Virus record (IMG/VR): IMGVR_UViG_3300031566_000176
Span: 1-36,829 of that record
DNA length: 36,829 nt
Origin: a virus
Reading direction: 5' to 3' (one strand)
Below, one piece after another: positions 150 to 36,829 of this stretch. How positions within the stretch are numbered: the stretch's first letter is position 1; each line of letters opens with the position of its first letter. The notes beneath the pieces were generated by a model, which was not told the DNA's origin, did no database searches, and saw nothing but the letters and a program-made list of their open reading frames with translations. Both the position numbers and the translations under genes were made by a program.

Positions 150-800
150 ATGAGTTATACGACTACTAAAAGCGGCATCCTCAAGCGTATGGGAGTGCCT
201 TCCGTCTATCAGGATTGCACATTTGATAATTTCGAGGGAGACCCCGAAAAACTATTCATACGGGATAGCATTCGATCTATTGCCGATGTAAACGGAAGTG
301 TTTATCTGCACGGCGAAACTACTGGTGCCGGTAAGACCCATCTTGCGATTGCTGCCCTTGCCCGCTCGTGGTGGAATGTGGCTAAGTCTTGTATTGAGGT
401 CGATGCCACCAACGACTCAATAACACTCTCGGGCTACTTTTCAAGTCCCTATTTATTTCGATATTATAACGTTCGGCGCTTGGGACTGGAGTTAGAGATG
501 GCCGGAATTGAGTTGATAGCCCAAATTGATAACCTCTTCATAGATGATGACGAGATGGTTATGTGCCTGTTATTAGATGAATTAGGGCGCGAACCTAACC
601 GATGTATCGAACGAATCGAGTGTGTATTGGATGAAATTTACGCAAGGCAGACCCAGATTATCATTACATCGAACCTGACAATGGACGGGCTTGAATCCAG
701 ATATGACGCTGCTATCATTCGCCGCCTCGATCAGACCGGCACTTTCATCAACGTCAACTGGCCTGCATACGATTTGGGGATTAAAAATGGAACAGCTTAA
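150..800 (+). CDS. DnaC-like AAA+ ATPase, probable helicase loader
   Basis: The 216-aa protein has a P-loop at residues 55-64 (GETTGAGKTH, DnaC/IstB style), a Walker B at 140-146 (LLLDELG), a sensor-1 TSNL at 173-176 and an arginine pair at 191-192 where the arginine finger sits in DnaC-type ATPases. Length and motif spacing fit phage helicase loaders, which deliver the host or phage replicative helicase to an initiator-DNA complex. The ATG at 150 follows a purine-rich AAGGA. The gene directly follows the replication initiator, the classic lambda O/P-like or DnaD/DnaC-like pairing. No phage helicase gene was recognised, so a host helicase is the likely partner (inference). IstB-type transposition helper is the main alternative but has no transposase nearby. 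Confidence 0.85.
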   Translation: MSYTTTKSGILKRMGVPSVYQDCTFDNFEGDPEKLFIRDSIRSIADVNGSVYLHGETTGAGKTHLAIAALARSWWNVAKSCIEVDATNDSITLSGYFSSPYLFRYYNVRRLGLELEMAGIELIAQIDNLFIDDDEMVMCLLLDELGREPNRCIERIECVLDEIYARQTQIIITSNLTMDGLESRYDAAIIRRLDQTGTFINVNWPAYDLGIKNGTA

Positions 801-3430: not shown

Positions 3431-3459
3431 TTGACATCGAGGTCTCCCCCTATTATATT
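3431..3459 (+). promoter_or_regulatory. Rightward sigma-70 promoter of the shared family
   Basis: TTGACA, 17 bp, TATATT. The first 12 bases (TTGACATCGAGG) are identical to those of the promoter at 36013 before the replication initiator. It drives the AlpA-like gene and possibly the whole late region. Confidence 0.8.
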
Positions 3460-3470
3460 GATGTATGTTC

Positions 3471-3579
3471 ATATATTCATATTCACCTGAATATATCTAA
3501 ATAACGCCCAGATTCCTAAAGGGGGGACTATAGGGGGGTGATAGTAATACCAATGGAGTTTAGGATAGTTAGAGTATGA
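3471..3579 (+). promoter_or_regulatory. Structured leader with a possible 8-codon upstream ORF
   Basis: The leader contains an 8-bp hairpin ATATATTC/GAATATAT (3471..3478, 3489..3496). It also has a 7-bp long-range pair TCCTAAA (3514..3520) with TTTAGGA (3559..3565), which contains the AGGA most likely used as SD for the gene at 3576. A tiny frame ATG 3553..3579 (MEFRIVRV) ends in TGA overlapping the ATG at 3576, so translation could be coupled. Confidence 0.45.
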
Positions 3580-25110: not shown

Positions 25111-25139
25111 TTGACATCGGACAGAAGGTTTAGTATATT
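25111..25139 (+). promoter_or_regulatory. Rightward sigma-70 promoter of the shared family
   Basis: TTGACA, 17 bp, TATATT. The start TTGACATCG is shared with the promoters at 3431 and 36013. It reads into the structured region at 25145..25305 and towards a convergent operon, so it should make a short separate transcript. Confidence 0.75.
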
Positions 25140-25211
25140 CAATCGGCTGACCTGATCGCCGCGAGAATGCGACGATAAATGAGCTCCTGGTCAGCCACAT
25201 AGCGCTGGGGG

Positions 25212-25286
25212 ATGAAATTCGGCTCCACGCCGTATAATGCCACCGCACTGCGGGCGGCATTCTATATCCTTCAGTTAGCGAAGTGA
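25212..25286 (+). CDS. Possible 24-aa micropeptide within the structured transcript
   Basis: ATG 25212 follows GGGGG directly and encodes MKFGSTPYNATALRAAFYIL plus QLAK, ending in TGA at the base of the terminator-like hairpin. The close G-run is a poor SD and the codons coincide with a strong hairpin, so I consider coding possible but unproven. Confidence 0.3.
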   Translation: MKFGSTPYNATALRAAFYILQLAK

Positions 25287-25305
25287 GGCGGCTTTCGGGC
25301 CGCCT
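25286..25305 (+). terminator. Hairpin between convergent transcripts
   Basis: AGGCGGC/GCCGCCT form a perfect 7-bp stem with a TTTCGG loop, followed on the + strand by TTGCTATT. The T-tract is weak. It lies between the end of the rightward small transcript and the end of the leftward operon (stop at 25311) and may serve both. Confidence 0.5.
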
Positions 25306-25310
25306 TGCTA

Positions 25311-27300: not shown

Positions 27301-27585
27301 TTACCTCTTTCTTTTAACATACGGCGGAAGGTTTAGCTCGTAGGAGCTTGATGTTTTTGAATGACGCTTAACGCTGATTAAACCTGTTTTCCTCAATTCC
27401 TTGAGGGCACGAAATACGGAACGTCGAGACATCCGTGTTGAATTACTCAAGGATTGTATTGAGGGATTGAGCTGCCCGGATTGGGCATTACGCTGCCCCA
27501 CCAGTTGCAAGAGCAAGTGGCGGGCAATATGGGTGATTTTCAGGTCGCCGTAAATAACGGCGTTCCATCTGTCGAAGGGTTTCAT
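27301..27585 (-). CDS. HTH_36-like winged helix-turn-helix protein
   Basis: The 94-aa protein matches the helix-turn-helix found in phage and plasmid regulators and replication proteins: DLKITHIARHLLLQLVGQRN, then LNPSIQSLSNSTRMSRRSVFRALKELRKTGLISVKRH ('pSi..LA...g.SrrtV.rAl..L...GlI...r'). It is the first gene of the leftward operon with the MT-A70 methyltransferase and probably regulates transcription there or in the divergent block. I start at ATG 27585; AGGA lies 6 nt upstream directly after a pseudoknot helix. A longer reading from 27636 would start inside the leader structure. Confidence 0.75.
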   Translation of the reverse strand: MKPFDRWNAVIYGDLKITHIARHLLLQLVGQRNAQSGQLNPSIQSLSNSTRMSRRSVFRALKELRKTGLISVKRHSKTSSSYELNLPPYVKRKR

Positions 27586-27594
27586 AGGTATCCT

Positions 27595-27673
27595 ATCGCA
27601 CTTTGTTCCTTTGGGGGGGTGAAGTGCGATCGACACCCCCCCGCCGGACAGGATTACCCCTCGCTATCGAGGG
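27595..27673 (-). promoter_or_regulatory. H-type pseudoknot leader abutting the SD of the HTH gene
   Basis: Read leftward, a 5' hairpin CCCTCG/CGAGGG (27658..27673) is followed by stem 1, GGGGGGGTG/CACCCCCCC (9 bp, 27613..27621 with 27634..27642). Its 12-nt loop contains ATCGCACTT, which pairs perfectly (9 bp) with AAGTGCGAT at 27595..27603. Loop lengths are 3, 0 and 9 nt, a classic H-type arrangement. Stem 2 ends exactly where the SD (AGGA) begins. Confidence 0.7.
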
Positions 27674-27680
27674 TTTGGTA

Positions 27681-27709
27681 AATATAAGGATATAGTTTAG
27701 CCCTGTCAA
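27681..27709 (-). promoter_or_regulatory. Leftward sigma-70 promoter for the HTH/methyltransferase operon
   Basis: On the minus strand: TTGACA (27704..27709), 17 bp, TATATT (27681..27686). The expected transcript start is about 27674, right at the 5' hairpin of the pseudoknot leader. Confidence 0.8.
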
Positions 27710-28033: not shown

Positions 28034-28062
28034 TTGACTCCCCTAATTCTATTGAGTATCTT
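28034..28062 (+). promoter_or_regulatory. Rightward sigma-70 promoter of the shared family
   Basis: TTGACT, 17 bp, TATCTT. It reads into the pseudoknot RNA at 28074 and then the Cys-rich gene at 28302. Confidence 0.65.
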
Positions 28063-28073
28063 GTTTATCGAAA

Positions 28074-28255
28074 GGCTATTCACCACGCGAAGGTATTTTT
28101 ATGAGTGAATATGAACCCGGCAGTTGAAATCACCTTCGCACGGAAAGTGAATAGCCCAGCTGTCGGGTTCTTCATTTGGGATAAGATATGCAGAAACAAC
28201 ATCAATAGAAAGGGTTCGTCAATTAAGGGGGTAATCTGATATACCCTTGGCACTG
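28074..28255 (+). ncRNA. Structured leader RNA with a 10-bp pseudoknot
   Basis: GGCTATTCAC (28074..28083) pairs with GTGAATAGCC (28147..28156), 10 bp. Inside it GCGAAGGT (28087..28094) pairs with ACCTTCGC (28132..28139), 8 bp. Within the 37-nt loop, AACCCGGCAG (28114..28123) pairs with CTGTCGGGTT (28160..28169) outside the stem, 10 bp with one G-U, forming a pseudoknot. A further hairpin GGGTA/TACCC follows at about 28227..28250. With 230 nt before the next ATG it could be a regulatory leader or an independent RNA. Confidence 0.65.
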
Positions 28256-32658: not shown

Positions 32659-32786
32659 ATCACATCCCTATCGCAATCGACATCCTTGTCATAATCATAA
32701 TAATACTTTTAGCTATTATCATTGGGCGGGAACTCGTTAATTGGCTTGTTAGATGGATGGAAAGAGGAAAGGGGGGAGAAGAATGA
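32655..32786 (+). CDS. 43-aa single-span membrane peptide
   Basis: ATG 32655 overlaps the methyltransferase stop (ATGA) and GAGGTG lies 6 nt upstream. The product has a very hydrophobic stretch (IDILVIIIIILLAIIIG) and a basic, Gly/Lys-rich end. It overlaps the zinc-ribbon gene by 4 bp. Function unknown. Confidence 0.55.
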   Translation: MNHIPIAIDILVIIIIILLAIIIGRELVNWLVRWMERGKGGEE

Positions 32787-32971
32787 CGCGCCGTTGCCTT
32801 AACCCCAGATGCAGGAGCTATTACATCAGAACCGTCCTGCGGATGGACGACAACGTGGACGGGAGCAAATTACGACAGTTCCGCTGCCTTGAATGCGGAT
32901 ACAGTTGGTCGGAGCGGGAGCCTAAACCCGCTGAAGTCAAACCTGAAGGAGAGAGTGATGAACGTGTGTGA
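32783..32971 (+). CDS. Zinc-ribbon protein
   Basis: The 62-aa protein has two Cys pairs, CLNPRC (5, 10) and CLEC (35, 38) in RQFRCLECGYSWSE, a four-Cys zinc ribbon like those of phage transcription activators (Ogr-like) or small nucleic acid-binding proteins. The linker VLRMDDNVDGSKL fits a beta-hairpin ribbon. GGGGGGAG lies upstream of ATG 32783. Confidence 0.7.
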   Translation: MTRRCLNPRCRSYYIRTVLRMDDNVDGSKLRQFRCLECGYSWSEREPKPAEVKPEGESDERV

Positions 32972-33222: not shown

Positions 33223-33251
33223 TTGACATTGGGGTTTGAATTGCTTATATT
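33223..33251 (+). promoter_or_regulatory. Rightward sigma-70 promoter for the HNH gene
   Basis: TTGACA, 17 bp, TATATT. It directly abuts TGGTGG, which is also found just after the -10 of the replication-gene promoter at 36036..36041. Confidence 0.8.
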
Positions 33252-33258
33252 GGTGGCG

Positions 33259-33343
33259 GCGGGTCGCTCCCGCTTAATGGTTCGGCTGGGTTGAGGTCTC
33301 CTCGATGACTATCAACCCACCGAACACCACCATCAATCGAGGA
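33259..33343 (+). promoter_or_regulatory. Pseudoknot leader occluding the SD of the HNH gene
   Basis: 5' hairpin GCGGG/CCCGC (33259..33273). Stem GTTCGG-c-TGGGTTGA (33280..33294) with TCAACCCA-CCGAAC (33312..33325): 14 bp with one bulged C. The 17-nt loop has TCCTCGAT (33299..33306), which pairs over 8 bp with ATCGAGGA (33336..33343), including the SD GAGG; ATG follows 7 nt later. The same architecture with different bases lies before the replication gene (36051..36134). Confidence 0.75.
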
Positions 33344-33350
33344 CTCCAAA

Positions 33351-33971
33351 ATGAAAACAGAAAAGCAATGCACCAAGTGCGGTGAAGTAAAGTCGCTGAA
33401 GGAATTCTACTTCCAGAAACAGGATAATTGTTATCGTGGTGAATGTAAAGAATGCAGAAGGTCATATTTACATTTATGGGGTCAAATCCATAAGTTGGAA
33501 ATTCGAGAAAGAAAGCGTAATTACAATCAGATTCACAGACTGGAGATTCAAGAGAGACATAGCCAATACTATCAAACTCATAAAAATAAGTGGAAATTGT
33601 ATTATCGATTCAATAAAGACAAACATCATAAATCAACTCGTTTATATTACCAAACCCATAAACTTGAAGCGCAAAAATATCAGCGTCAATATCGTCAAAC
33701 ACCAGCGGGTAAATTGATTCGGCGTAATGCCGCCCATCGTCGCCGTGCACTGAAAAAAGATGGTAATATAACACTTGCTCAATGGAATGCCATCAAGTTA
33801 CAGCAAAAATACAAATGTTATTGGTGTAAGCGTAGGTTTAAAGATAGCGAACTGACTATAGATCACGTAATCCCACTTTCAAAGGGCGGGGTGCACGATA
33901 TAAGCAATACGGTTGCAGCGTGTAAACCTTGTAATTTAAGTAAACAAGACAAAATCTGGAGTTTAATGTGA
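33351..33971 (+). CDS. HNH endonuclease with an N-terminal zinc ribbon and repeat-rich linker
   Basis: The 206-aa protein has an N-terminal Cys set (Cys7, 10, 27, 32, 35) and a C-terminal HNH nuclease (about 153-206): CYWC, then LTIDHVIPLSKGGVHD with Asp171-His172, a downstream Asn186, and CKPC, which completes the structural zinc site. The linker repeats a Tyr/His/Lys unit (NQIHRLEIQE, YYQTHKLEAQ, YQRQYRQT). The gene is AT-rich against its surroundings and has its own promoter and leader, so it looks like a mobile, homing-type gene; it could also help DNA packaging or damage host DNA. Confidence 0.85.
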   Translation: MKTEKQCTKCGEVKSLKEFYFQKQDNCYRGECKECRRSYLHLWGQIHKLEIRERKRNYNQIHRLEIQERHSQYYQTHKNKWKLYYRFNKDKHHKSTRLYYQTHKLEAQKYQRQYRQTPAGKLIRRNAAHRRRALKKDGNITLAQWNAIKLQQKYKCYWCKRRFKDSELTIDHVIPLSKGGVHDISNTVAACKPCNLSKQDKIWSLM

Positions 33972-34153
33972 ACTCTATAGTTTTAACCGCCAACCAGCGG
34001 AAGGGGCTGCTGGAGGTCTTAAAACAGTGCGAGGATTACCTGACAATGATGATTGAACTTGAAATTATGACAGACCACAAGAAGGAACAGAAGTTAGTCC
34101 GAAAAGTCCGGGCAGAAATGAAGACGCTCAAGTCCGGCGACCACAATGTTTGA
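33968..34153 (+). CDS. Small hypothetical protein, 61 aa
   Basis: Starts at GTG 33968 overlapping the HNH stop (GTGA), indicating coupling. The helical protein begins NSIVLTANQRKGLLEVLKQC and ends in a basic helix. No family recognised. It overlaps the next gene by 8 bp. Confidence 0.6.
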   Translation: MNSIVLTANQRKGLLEVLKQCEDYLTMMIELEIMTDHKKEQKLVRKVRAEMKTLKSGDHNV

Positions 34154-34340
34154 TCACCGCCTGTTCACCGCCGACGTGCGCTTACTGCCAATTACTGGCT
34201 GTTGGGAATGCCGACATTGGAAAGAAAGGTGGGATGATGGGGTCCGCTATACAATTGATTGCCACCATCCCGACGTTGGAGTTCGGGAGATTGATGTAGC
34301 GATGTCTAAGTTTCCCAAATGGTGTCCACTTCGCAGTTAG
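34146..34340 (+). CDS. Small Cys-rich protein, probable zinc binder
   Basis: The 64-aa protein has four spaced Cys (19, 22, 39, 60) in GCWECRHW, IDCHHPDV and KWCPL. This pattern is common in small phage proteins ('CweC.h......C..p......CP') and is likely to bind zinc. It starts inside the previous gene. A stretch of 82 bp follows before the next start with a hydrophobic but startless frame. Confidence 0.6.
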   Translation: MFDHRLFTADVRLLPITGCWECRHWKERWDDGVRYTIDCHHPDVGVREIDVAMSKFPKWCPLRS

Positions 34341-34422
34341 ATACCAAACCTTCATCATCTGGGGTCTGGTGCTGGCGGTTGTCATTCTTTGCGTCATCGT
34401 GCTAACCTGAAAGGATACGACA

Positions 34423-34656
34423 ATGATATTGATATTTGATAAGTATCGAGGTGCTCTAAATTTATCGGCTGCCAAATTTATGAGGTCGGGAAGGAAATCC
34501 TTGCTGGTTACATTTCCTGACGGTAGCCGGTATGCAGTTCATCGCCTTTGCATATTGACACTCGAAGGGTTAATGAGTAGAAAATCAGTAATAGATTATC
34601 AGTGGCGACAGCTTAAAAAGAGTAAAATCAAGGAGGACGACAATGAAACTACGTGA
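34423..34656 (+). CDS. Hypothetical protein, 77 aa
   Basis: ATG 34423 has AAAGGA 7 nt upstream. The protein is basic with a beta-rich front half (SLLVTFPDGSRYAVHRLCIL) and a helical, charged end. No family recognised. It overlaps the next gene by 14 bp. Confidence 0.6.
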   Translation: MILIFDKYRGALNLSAAKFMRSGRKSLLVTFPDGSRYAVHRLCILTLEGLMSRKSVIDYQWRQLKKSKIKEDDNETT

Positions 34657-34936
34657 TCTTGTCACGAAGGAATGGCGGGTTGAAGATGAACCGCTTTCCG
34701 AGCGTTGCAAAGACAATTTGTTCCCAAATTATTACTGTGTCATTGAGGTAAATGGAGAACGATTAGAGGCAATCGCTCGTTGCCGCGACCGCGAGACCGC
34801 CACCGCCATCGCCGCGCTGCCGAAGTTGTATGACCTTGCACTTGAGGTCATTAAGACAAGCGGTGGTTATAGCAGACATTTGGCGCAACTTGCCCTTGAC
34901 GCCGCCAACGTCGCGGATGAACAGGAGGTGAAATGA
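34643..34936 (+). CDS. Hypothetical protein, 97 aa
   Basis: ATG 34643 follows AAGGAGG. The segment CRDRETATAIAALPKLYDLALEVI belongs to the same loose family as the startless frame at 2342..2527 ('NA..IAaaPeLl.al'), a widespread small phage protein of unknown role. It overlaps the following gene by 4 bp. Confidence 0.65.
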   Translation: MKLRDLVTKEWRVEDEPLSERCKDNLFPNYYCVIEVNGERLEAIARCRDRETATAIAALPKLYDLALEVIKTSGGYSRHLAQLALDAANVADEQEVK

Positions 34937-35310
34937 AACCCACACAGACCGAGATGAACTCCGACCTGCTTGAACGGGCAGGTTATGAATGGTTTACAAC
35001 AGGCAGGGGTAGTCCATCTTTTCTCGAAAAGCCTGAGAATAATGAGGGATATTGGCATCCCTGCGAGAGACCTGATAATTTGGATAATGACGATTATTTT
35101 CACAGTGTGCCTGATTACTTCACCGACCGCAACGCCCTTTGGGAACTGGAGGAGAAGATGTCGGATGAAGAGAAAATCCGCTATGAAGAGGAAGTTGGAT
35201 ATTACACCTTTTCAGGTGGATACAATTCGAGGTTTTGGAGTGCCCGCCACACCCCGACCGATGTGTTGGCCGAGGCGGCGTGGAAGGCGACGAGAGTGGA
35301 GGACAAATGA
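34933..35310 (+). CDS. Hypothetical acidic protein, 125 aa
   Basis: The protein is acidic and aromatic (GYWHPCERPDNLDNDDYFHS; DEEKIRYEEEVGYYTFSGGY). AGGAGG lies upstream of ATG 34933, which overlaps the previous stop. The end, TPTDVLAEAAWKATRVE, resembles the end of other small phage proteins ('at.a..eAaw.alr'). No function recognised. Confidence 0.6.
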   Translation: MKPTQTEMNSDLLERAGYEWFTTGRGSPSFLEKPENNEGYWHPCERPDNLDNDDYFHSVPDYFTDRNALWELEEKMSDEEKIRYEEEVGYYTFSGGYNSRFWSARHTPTDVLAEAAWKATRVEDK

Positions 35311-35792
35311 CCGAAGAACAGAAGCTGAACCGCGAGGCGCTGGAGGTGCTGGGAGGAGTGAAACACTGCCAATACCCAGGGTGCAATCGTCCGTTAAGAA
35401 GGGACAATAAGACCGGGCATTGCGGATTGCATTATCAATTCAAACTATGTCCTGTCTGTAAAGCATATTATTACCGCTATGCCCAGCAGTGCTCAAACTG
35501 CGTAAGGAGGGGGATAGAGTTAAGGAAGACCTCTGCATCGCGGCCGGCTACGATTGACCTGAGTAAGTTGAAGCCGATTACTGATAGGTGGAAGGAGAAT
35601 GCCCGCCGGGTCCGGGTCTACCGACCGAAAGGATGGAGCCAGAAGATACTGGAGGTGGGGCATAGAGCCGAGGGTTACCGTAATTCCACACTTAGATGCC
35701 GGGCGTTTGGGGACTGGCACTTGGATAAGGTGCTTACCGATCCGTTTTTAGGGCGGGTGCGGAGAGAAAAGGAAGATGAAGGCGATTCCTAA
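35307..35792 (+). CDS. Zinc-binding hypothetical protein, 161 aa
   Basis: Two metal sites are apparent: Cys21-x4-Cys26 with Cys39/His42 (CQYPGC ... GHCGLH), and Cys48-x2-Cys51 with Cys62-x2-Cys65 (CPVC ... CSNC). The rest is very basic (ENARRVRVYRPKGWSQKI) and likely binds nucleic acid. ATG 35307 overlaps the previous stop and has GGAGG 7 nt before it. It ends 22 bp before the next chosen start. Confidence 0.65.
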   Translation: MTEEQKLNREALEVLGGVKHCQYPGCNRPLRRDNKTGHCGLHYQFKLCPVCKAYYYRYAQQCSNCVRRGIELRKTSASRPATIDLSKLKPITDRWKENARRVRVYRPKGWSQKILEVGHRAEGYRNSTLRCRAFGDWHLDKVLTDPFLGRVRREKEDEGDS

Positions 35793-35814
35793 CCTTAGCC
35801 TGAAAGGAGAGACA

Positions 35815-36027
35815 ATGTGTGAATGGATGAACAAATTCAACGATGACGGCAGCCTGAAACCTGCCCATCAAATTGTTCAAGAACAAGCTGATGATGAAAG
35901 CTTATGGTTTATAAATGAAAGCATAGAAACCGCATACATACAGCAAGCTCTTACATTATTACATTCAGTAGTCAATATGAATCATTTACAGAAGTCAATC
36001 GAGGAAGGGGGCTTGACATCGAGGTGA
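35815..36027 (+). CDS. Hypothetical protein, 70 aa
   Basis: ATG 35815 has AAAGGAGAG just upstream; an in-frame ATG at 35776 would overlap the previous gene. The protein is helical and acidic (DDGSLKPAHQIVQEQADDES). Its end overlaps the promoter of the replication gene (36013..36041). Confidence 0.6.
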   Translation: MCEWMNKFNDDGSLKPAHQIVQEQADDESLWFINESIETAYIQQALTLLHSVVNMNHLQKSIEEGGLTSR

Positions 36028-36041
36028 TACATTCGTATAAT
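36013..36041 (+). promoter_or_regulatory. Perfect-consensus sigma-70 promoter for the replication module
   Basis: TTGACA, 17 bp, TATAAT: both hexamers are exact and the spacing optimal. It should be the strongest promoter in the genome and drive the initiator, helicase loader and lipoprotein-like gene. Confidence 0.9.
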
Positions 36042-36050
36042 ATGGTGGAT

Positions 36051-36134
36051 GCGGCTTGCAACCGCTTCAGTCGGGCGGAGCAGAGATTTCCTTTCGGGTC
36101 GTCTGCTTCCCCGACGCCACCATTAACGAAAGGA
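36051..36134 (+). promoter_or_regulatory. Pseudoknot leader occluding the SD of the replication initiator
   Basis: 5' hairpin GCGG/CCGC (36051..36065). Stem GTCGGG-c-GGAGCAGA (36070..36084) with TCTGCTTC-CCCGAC (36102..36115): 14 bp (one G-U) with a single bulged C. The 17-nt loop has TCCTTTCG (36089..36096), which pairs over 8 bp with CGAAAGGA (36127..36134), including the SD; ATG follows 7 nt later. Lengths match the HNH leader element by element. Confidence 0.75.
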
Positions 36135-36141
36135 TTTCTCG

Positions 36142-36829
<688 letters not shown>

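Follow-up and report, generated by a model that had tools for sequence, protein, structure and literature searches.

The genome of an uncultured phage analysed here (the window, 36,829 nt over its whole length) raises the question of why an HNH endonuclease gene and a replication initiator gene, the latter in a helicase-loader operon, are preceded by leaders of the same predicted pseudoknot fold, and whether these leaders could govern the translation of both genes. Silencing by RNA structure over the ribosome-binding site (RBS) is known for phage genes, HNH homing endonucleases included (PMC3014915, PMC2988022). The first-pass annotation of this DNA had proposed the fold; inspection of the two regions recovered every element of it, with the same geometry in leader A (HNH gene) and leader B (replication initiator gene), and confirmed that the Shine-Dalgarno sequence (SD) of each gene lies within the helix S2 formed between loop and SD. 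As judged from their sequences, A and B are diverged paralogues with a geometry identical to the nucleotide. The features are listed in Table 1; the HNH gene has a GC content of 37%, versus 52% for the genome.

Table 1. Positions of the leader, promoter and gene features in the window
Feature	Position	Strand	Details
Promoter of leader A, TTGACA-17-TATATT	33223..33251	+	11/12 consensus matches; predicted +1 ~33258
TGGTGG, P0 5' strand, leader A	33251..33256	+	between -10 and predicted +1; only in read-through RNA; complementary to 33327-33332; pair probability 0.72-0.85 in read-through RNA
P1, 5'-terminal GC hairpin, leader A	33259..33273	+	arms 33259-33263/33269-33273
P2, long hairpin, leader A	33280..33325	+	6 bp, GTTCGG (33280-85)/CCGAAC (33320-25); bulged C33286; 8 bp, TGGGTTGA (33287-94)/TCAACCCA (33312-19); plus P2b
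Loop with P2b, leader A	33295..33311	+	17 nt; P2b 33295-98/33307-10, bulged A33311, apical loop 33299-33306
Anti-SD octamer TCCTCGAT, S2 5' strand, leader A	33299..33306	+	loop positions 5-12; 8/8 complementary to 33336-33343
Linker motif CCACCAT, leader A	33327..33333	+	identical in A and B; pseudoknot loop 3, or P0 3' strand; whole linker ACCACCATCA, 10 nt
ATCGAGGA, SD strand of S2, leader A	33336..33343	+	7 nt ahead of ATG 33351
HNH endonuclease gene, 206 aa	33351..33971	+	PF14279 HNH_5 2.5e-15, PF01844, phrog_1035 endonuclease VII 7.6e-23
Promoter of leader B, TTGACA-17-TATAAT	36013..36041	+	12/12 consensus matches; predicted +1 ~36048
ATGGTGG, P0 5' strand, leader B	36042..36048	+	7/7 complementary to 36117-36123; pair probability 0.74-1.0 in read-through RNA
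P1, 5'-terminal GC hairpin, leader B	36051..36065	+	arms 36051-54/36062-65
P2, long hairpin, leader B	36070..36115	+	6 bp, GTCGGG/CCCGAC; bulged C36076; 8 bp, GGAGCAGA/TCTGCTTC; plus P2b (36085-88/36097-100, bulged G36101, apical loop 36089-36096)
Anti-SD octamer TCCTTTCG, S2 5' strand, leader B	36089..36096	+	8/8 complementary to 36127-36134
Linker motif CCACCAT, leader B	36117..36123	+	identical in A and B; whole linker GCCACCATTAA, 11 nt
CGAAAGGA, SD strand of S2, leader B	36127..36134	+	7 nt ahead of ATG 36142
Replication initiator / DnaD-like loader gene	36142..36829	+	phrog_25210 9e-50, phrog_1701 6e-39, phrog_50 9e-21; crosses circular junction to base 140 (275 aa in all; junction read)
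DnaC-like helicase loader gene	150-800		after replication initiator gene
Promoter of leader C, TTGACA-17-TATATT	27681..27709	-	11/12 consensus matches, exact pattern match
Leader C, H-type pseudoknot	27595..27642	-	9-bp stem, 12-nt loop, 9-bp loop-downstream helix adjoining AGGA
HTH_36 / replication-initiator-like ORF, 94 aa, after leader C	27301..27585	-	PF13730 3.2e-8, phrog_391 2e-9

The MAFFT alignment of the two leaders ran end to end. When the 22 pairs of the proposed pseudoknot were compared between A and B, both bases differed in 10 pairs and a single base in 1, and 11 were unchanged; the both-side changes affected 4 of the 8 pairs of S2 and 6 of the 14 pairs of P2, and no pair was broken. 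The earlier statement that nearly all stem bases differ while remaining paired was thus right about the pairing (0/22 broken) and overstated in extent, since half of the pairs differ; selection on RNA structure, which it had also put forward, agrees with the compensatory changes in P2 and S2. Outside the helices, the conserved sequence consisted mainly of P1, the bulged C and CCACCAT. The homology of A and B could also stem from a GC-rich repeat that was duplicated recently, its complementarity being incidental and without function, and strong pseudoknots do arise by chance in large GC-rich DNA; this explanation was already disfavoured and is very improbable in view of the ten both-side changes with no broken pair and the placement on the SD in both copies. 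The reading that we favour, with a probability of roughly 0.6, is that leaders A and B are a duplicated, cis-acting, putative RBS-occluding translational lock on two early phage genes, the evidence in hand being the promoters, the geometry, the complementarity of S2 and P2, the compensatory changes and the SD position.

In dinucleotide shuffles, a pseudoknot as strong as that of the leader was found in 1/4000 for A and 1/4000 for B, with no shuffle having both helices as strong; for each pseudoknot the frequency is below about 1 in 1000 shuffles, whereas 1.5 Mb of both-strand DNA of relatives, often GC-rich, gave equally low summed helix energies by chance. Helix energy by itself does not carry the case, which draws its force from where the pseudoknots lie (promoter, 5' end, SD), from the geometry they share and from the compensatory changes; a phage-wide pseudoknot scan that used only energy was abandoned, as it gave many chance matches in GC-rich relatives. 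A covariance model of A and B scored 114 and 111 bits at the two leaders and 10.5 bits at the next position in the window; as it was built from the leaders themselves, these scores show only the absence of a third homologous copy. Over about 2.5 Mb of loci its best score was 18.6 bits, compared with 111-114 for the leaders.

The first-pass annotation had called for a search for further homologues and knew of no described family of this kind. On the latter point it was upheld by Rfam 15 (4227 models), which gave no match in the window at the gathering threshold; a relaxed search returned only sub-threshold matches, which scored 12-18 bits where the gathering scores are 32-56, and none of the riboswitch models matched the transcribed (+) strand. 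On the former, pattern scans that covered 85,000 genomes and 2.9 million viral contigs revealed no further leader homologue among the matches listed; as far as the scans reach, this outcome goes against the first-pass reading, although such scans can miss diverged copies, and although the two copies themselves covary. The leader pattern had two matches in IMG/VR, both chance and coding; a promoter, GGTGG and CCACC pattern gave chance matches, mostly coding; a promoter and CCACCAT pattern gave no homologue among the matches listed, several being tRNA genes with the 3' end CCACCAT; and the scan of genome contigs gave three chance matches, one of them a tRNA. Likewise, no leader homologue was found by blastn against phages and plasmids or upstream of 44 related replication genes, and relatives of the capsid and terminase proteins had no such leader, the closest capsid relatives being fragments without the early region. 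That homologous copies are only two, both in one genome, counts against the lock reading. Two other identities were considered and rejected. For a tRNA-like element (7-bp P0, 2 nt, 4-bp arm), ARAGORN found no tRNA and the long arm was unfit; a guide RNA of an RNA-guided nuclease (IscB/IsrB type) was set aside, as the HNH protein has only 206 aa and is EndoVII-like.

Both leaders begin directly after a near-consensus sigma-70 promoter, which places the GC hairpin P1 at the 5' end of the mRNA. Five exact matches to TTGACA-N17-TATANT were located in the window, the promoters of leaders A and C among them, and at three of the five a strong pseudoknot lies within 130 nt downstream, just before a start codon. 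Leader C has a hairpin of its own (27674-27656) ahead of its pseudoknot, which was equalled in strength by 3/4000 shuffles; its geometry is unlike that of A and B, to which it is non-homologous. Four features were absent from the first-pass annotation: the promoters at the leader 5' ends, a third leader with a pseudoknot, the complementarity of GGTGG to CCACC and the mutual pairing of the loop flanks. The same layout of promoter, 5' hairpin and structure at the RBS in a leader of other design, together with P1 at the predicted 5' end and the small estimated lock strength, would suit leaders that are 5'-stabilising, translation-damping untranslated regions balancing two very strong promoters, in which the pseudoknot is no switch. 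We consider such passive tuning rather doubtful, since a merely weak RBS would be simpler and the retention of 22 paired positions while the copies diverged points to a specific structure.

On the favoured reading, a host-type promoter would yield an mRNA starting with P1, which probably shields the 5' end; the long hairpin P2 that follows would display an eight-base anti-SD loop, and pairing of this loop with the downstream SD octamer (S2) would complete the pseudoknot and keep the 30S subunit off, so that the HNH nuclease and the replication initiator would be made weakly, or only once the lock opens. Formation of S2 in the cell, and a resulting drop in translation, are what we infer from these features. 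In folds that lack S2, the mean unpaired probability of the SD octamer is 0.63 and 0.56; the octamer is then largely open, so that S2 would alter its accessibility. In both copies the loop flanks pair with each other (P2b), extending the stem to 18 bp and leaving an 8-nt apical loop that is exactly the anti-SD; P2b would presumably compete with S2 and make the lock easy to open. Pseudoknot energies are rough, and by the present estimate the pseudoknot is favoured by no more than about 0 to 4 kcal/mol over the SD-open, pseudoknot-free fold; the modelled leader RNA may therefore be bistable and the lock poised. Loop 3 (10-11 nt) would have to span 14-18 bp, which is possible but tight; this and the small energy margin weigh against the lock reading.

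Both copies have, in the stretch from the -10 element to the predicted +1, a conserved GGTGG with complementarity to the linker motif CCACCAT (7 bp in B, 6 bp in A), and P0 has pair probabilities of 0.72-1.0 in the read-through RNA. Against shuffles, the promoter-RBS duplex was significant for B (p 0.0005-0.002) and marginal for A (p 0.01-0.05), and the outer pairs are complementary in both leaders despite their differing sequences. Based on these complementarities, read-through RNA may be masked instead by another helix with the promoter-encoded P0 strand, as in T4 e and I-TevI. Carried further, the leaders would be switched by transcript origin: linker, SD and start codon would be covered by a helix (P0 with the outer pairs) whose 5' strand comes from the promoter region, read-through RNA from the upstream early genes would be silent, internal-promoter RNA lacking that strand would be translated, and the pseudoknot would be only a brake. 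We regard this as a possible, though not the preferred, explanation, because P0 shows no covariation (6/6 pairs unchanged), the genome-wide control gave weaker values, 5% for B and 11% for A, and no excess was seen at promoters C and D. Moreover, GGTGG could be a GC-rich promoter discriminator instead, and the own-promoter RNA retains the 8-nt anti-SD loop, hence its RBS is not simply free. The two helices could also be two locks on one RBS, the loop-SD pseudoknot in own-promoter RNA and, in read-through RNA, the GGTGG/CCACC helix with its outer pairs; as both use the CCACCAT linker, they would exclude each other, and together they would form a new family of RNA regulators. This is a speculative proposal to which we give little credence, but if true, translation of the nuclease and the replication initiator would be set by the origin of transcription and by a trans-acting phage factor.

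The lock might be opened by the ribosome itself or by an RNA-binding protein of phage or host. Conservation of P1, the bulged C and CCACCAT is what would be expected of a protein-binding site, and a phage protein might bind there and stabilise or melt the pseudoknot, as gp32 and Mu Com do with their own target mRNAs; examples would be the replication proteins and a 72-aa zinc-ribbon-like protein whose gene (32753-32968) lies immediately upstream. Com, a small zinc-finger protein that binds and melts an RNA structure at the mom start and thereby activates mom translation, is the precedent (PMC6483171); com-mom shares with our phage an RNA structure at a gene start and possibly a small zinc-binding activator nearby, but the Mu structure is a stem-loop, not a pseudoknot, and the zinc-ribbon-like ORF matches no family, its binding being putative. 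Two copies cannot tell conserved function from shared ancestry, and such an operator is unlikely to be the explanation. As for RNA partners, two candidate small RNAs showed no runs of pairing with leaders A and B beyond 8 nt, and no convincing antisense promoter was seen.

Leaders A and B thus probably allow the phage to hold back or switch the synthesis of its nuclease and replication proteins; if they work as proposed, nuclease production and replication onset would be coordinated through translation. Besides the two covarying pseudoknot paralogues, this one phage has an independent third leader with a pseudoknot; each of the three follows a near-consensus promoter, and two of them precede replication-type genes. 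A hairpin that presents an anti-SD loop of eight bases is a design simple enough for direct testing with cell-free reporters.

Documented pseudoknots controlling phage translation are rare, and a 2010 review considered that of the T4-type gene 32 possibly the sole viral case in translational autoregulation (PMC3014915). With the hairpins of T4 gene e, soc, I-TevI, mobE and segB (PMC3014915, PMC2988022) the leaders have in common that a structure in a phage mRNA overlies the RBS, that one of the controlled genes encodes an HNH-type endonuclease and that, if P0 forms, an internal promoter region encodes the 5' strand of a masking helix. The gene e and I-TevI type is, however, a plain hairpin present in read-through RNA only, the promoter-started RNA being free, whereas in leaders A and B the SD would be covered chiefly by a loop-SD pseudoknot that lies entirely downstream of the promoter, which is of sigma-70 type in contrast to the T4 late promoters. 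The autoregulatory pseudoknot of T2/T4 gene 32 likewise lies in a phage mRNA upstream of a DNA-metabolism gene, yet it is located 67 nt ahead of the start codon, where it serves to nucleate the binding of gp32, and is itself unpaired with the SD (PMC3014915). Leaders A and B are not of this type, as S2 includes the SD and the controlled genes encode an HNH nuclease and a replication initiator instead of a single-stranded DNA-binding protein. An SD within a pseudoknot helix is shared with riboswitches of the preQ1 and SAM-II classes, from which the leaders differ by an 18-bp variable stem, by phage nuclease and replication genes in place of metabolite genes, by the lack of an Rfam riboswitch match on the + strand and by the lack of evidence of a ligand. 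In the repZ leader of ColIb-P9/IncB plasmids, a pseudoknot between a loop and the RBS region, before a replication initiator gene, activates translation, and an antisense RNA counteracts it; compared with repZ as described, the pseudoknot here overlaps the SD. In both A and B it is the pseudoknot helix S2, a loop octamer against an AGGA-containing octamer with four compensatory changes, that holds the SD, which makes the two leaders putative members of the SD-sequestering pseudoknots.

Leader A, the 5′ mRNA leader of the HNH endonuclease gene, and leader B, that of the replication gene, each begin directly 3′ of a promoter and end 7 nt before the respective ATG. Re-reading of the window sequence matched to the base the first-pass annotation's description of both leaders, with a GC hairpin (P1), a long hairpin (P2) and a pseudoknot helix (S2) in which a loop anti-SD octamer pairs with the SD octamer. 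MAFFT aligned A and B over their full length, with GGTGG, the P1 arms, a bulged C, the loop TCCT, CCACCAT and ATG in common; this end-to-end alignment marks them as paralogues that have diverged, and not as separate inventions. The proposed pseudoknot has 22 pairs, of which 10 differ between A and B in both bases, 1 differs in one base and 11 are identical, with none broken; half of the pairs differ, so that the earlier wording, in which nearly all stem bases differ, was too strong. Shuffled leaders as strong as the observed ones numbered 1/4000 for A, 1/4000 for B and 3/4000 for leader C on the minus strand. The leader sequence, its position and the covariation are seen in the DNA itself, and we consider it fairly probable (about 60%) that A and B act in cis as a translational lock in which S2 covers the SD; this is the best-supported reading.

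Coordinates of the leaders' promoters, genes and other structured loci in the window
Feature	Position	Strand	Description
Promoter of leader A	33223-33251	+	TTGACA-17-TATATT, 11/12 consensus matches
Promoter of leader B	36013-36041	+	TTGACA-17-TATAAT, 12/12 consensus matches
Promoter of leader C	27709-27681	-	Then 5′ hairpin and H-type pseudoknot
HNH gene	33351-33971	+	ATG at 33351
DnaD-like/replisome-organiser gene	ATG 36142	+	DnaC-like loader downstream
Early region		+	RecT, RusA, C5-cytosine methylase, HNH endonuclease, replication genes
Early region		-	MT-A70, winged-helix gene
Zinc-ribbon-like ORF	32753-32968	+	72 aa, four cysteines; just 5′ of leader A
Repeat in replication gene	36575-36637	+	Tandem GAGCAG/AGGAGC, encoding poly(Glu-Gln)
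Stable RNA	25111-25310	+	TTGACA-17-TATATT promoter, then very stable RNA (~170 nt, MFE -75.5 kcal/mol) ending in a terminator-like hairpin
Inverted-repeat locus	28034-28180	+	Promoter-like site, then nested and pseudoknotted repeats
HTH-like ORF locus	3431-3576	+	TTGACA-17-TATATT promoter, 9-bp AT hairpin, structured leader, 66-aa ORF

The 17-nt loop does contain the described 4-nt and 5-nt flank segments, but these need not be unpaired, since in both copies they can pair together (GGUC with GACU and a bulged A in leader A, GAUU with GGUC and a bulged G in leader B). All 4 pairs of this flank helix are kept between A and B (1 with both bases changed, 3 with one), and with it the hairpin reaches 18 bp and leaves precisely the anti-SD octamer as its 8-nt apical loop. 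Energies were estimated from nested energies, S2 stacking and a pseudoknot cost of 7 to 9.6 kcal/mol, giving -36.9 to -39.5 kcal/mol for the pseudoknot versus -36.7 for the flank helix in A, and -33.5 to -36.1 versus -32.1 in B. By these estimates, the lock would be poised near balance and not strong, unless the octaloop pairs fully with the flank helix retained.

The window holds 5 exact TTGACA-N17-TATANT matches. At the usual distance from the -10, the predicted RNA starts are ~33258 (A) and ~36048 (B), which would therefore place P1 at the very 5′ end of the RNA. Just 3′ of the -10, the conserved GGTGG could form a helix (P0) of 7 bp in B and 6 bp in A with the complementary, likewise conserved linker motif CCACCAT. 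An RNA with the predicted start lacks GGTGG, so that P0 is possible only in read-through RNA, where on geometric grounds it would probably occupy the linker and exclude the pseudoknot. The -35 to +1 regions have extra complementarity to the SD/start region (B, -22.2 kcal/mol, shuffle p 0.0005-0.002; A, -19.4 kcal/mol, p 0.01-0.05), and pairings as good as these made up 5% (B) and 11% (A) of those elsewhere in the genome; at promoters C and D, compared likewise, no further complementarity to the SD/start region was found. Masking of read-through RNA by a promoter-encoded strand is suggested by these pairings, not established.

Leader C has the same layout, with a classical H-type pseudoknot built from a 9-bp stem, a 12-nt loop, a 9-nt linker and a second helix of 9 bp. 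The pseudoknot adjoins AGGA and the start codon (ATG, 27585) of an HTH_36 gene. Leader C scored 7 bits against the A+B covariance model and is not a homologue; because its SD can also be covered through ordinary pairing with a strand further upstream, two masks are possible, the pseudoknot being one of them.

The replication gene reads on in frame over the end of the 36,829-base viral record (36142-36829 plus 1-140), and the genome is therefore circular or circularly permuted; its poly(Glu-Gln) repeat is of the kind usual in linkers that vary in length. GC content is 37% in the HNH gene and 52% in the genome, which suggests that the gene was recently acquired or is mobile, bringing its own promoter and leader along. 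The zinc-ribbon-like ORF, with no match in the families searched, is possibly a transcription or translation regulator. The stable RNA, with no ORF or Rfam match, is a candidate phage small RNA. The inverted-repeat locus (GGCTATTCAC/GTGAATAGCC, GCGAAGGT/ACCTTCGC, AACCCGGCAG/CTGTCGGGTT) contains 11 nt that are a perfect complement of part of the leader before the ORF at 3576; the promoter of that ORF has TTGACATCGAGGT in its -35 region in common with promoter B.

Homologues of the leaders were found neither among the matches listed in pattern scans of viral contigs, nor in a pattern scan of 85,000 genomes, by blastn in phages and plasmids, or upstream of the 44 replication-gene relatives, in collections that may lack the records nearest to the window. 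The covariance-model and Rfam searches proposed in the first-pass annotation likewise yielded none, in ~2.5 Mb of loci or in Rfam. Capsid relatives were detected in 4 contigs by single-sequence scan and 8 by alignment scan, the closest (69% identity, or a short fragment) without the early region; the lineage is poorly sampled.

As a lock, the leader would fold in vivo with S2 over the SD, S2 would affect translation of the HNH and replication genes, and a trigger would act on it. There is a small chance that the leaders have a two-lock design, combining the pseudoknot with the promoter-encoded helix, that is truly new. Unlike plain T4 hairpins, leaders A and B have a pseudoknot downstream of the promoter; in contrast to gene 32, the SD itself is paired; and unlike riboswitches, they have no aptamer match.
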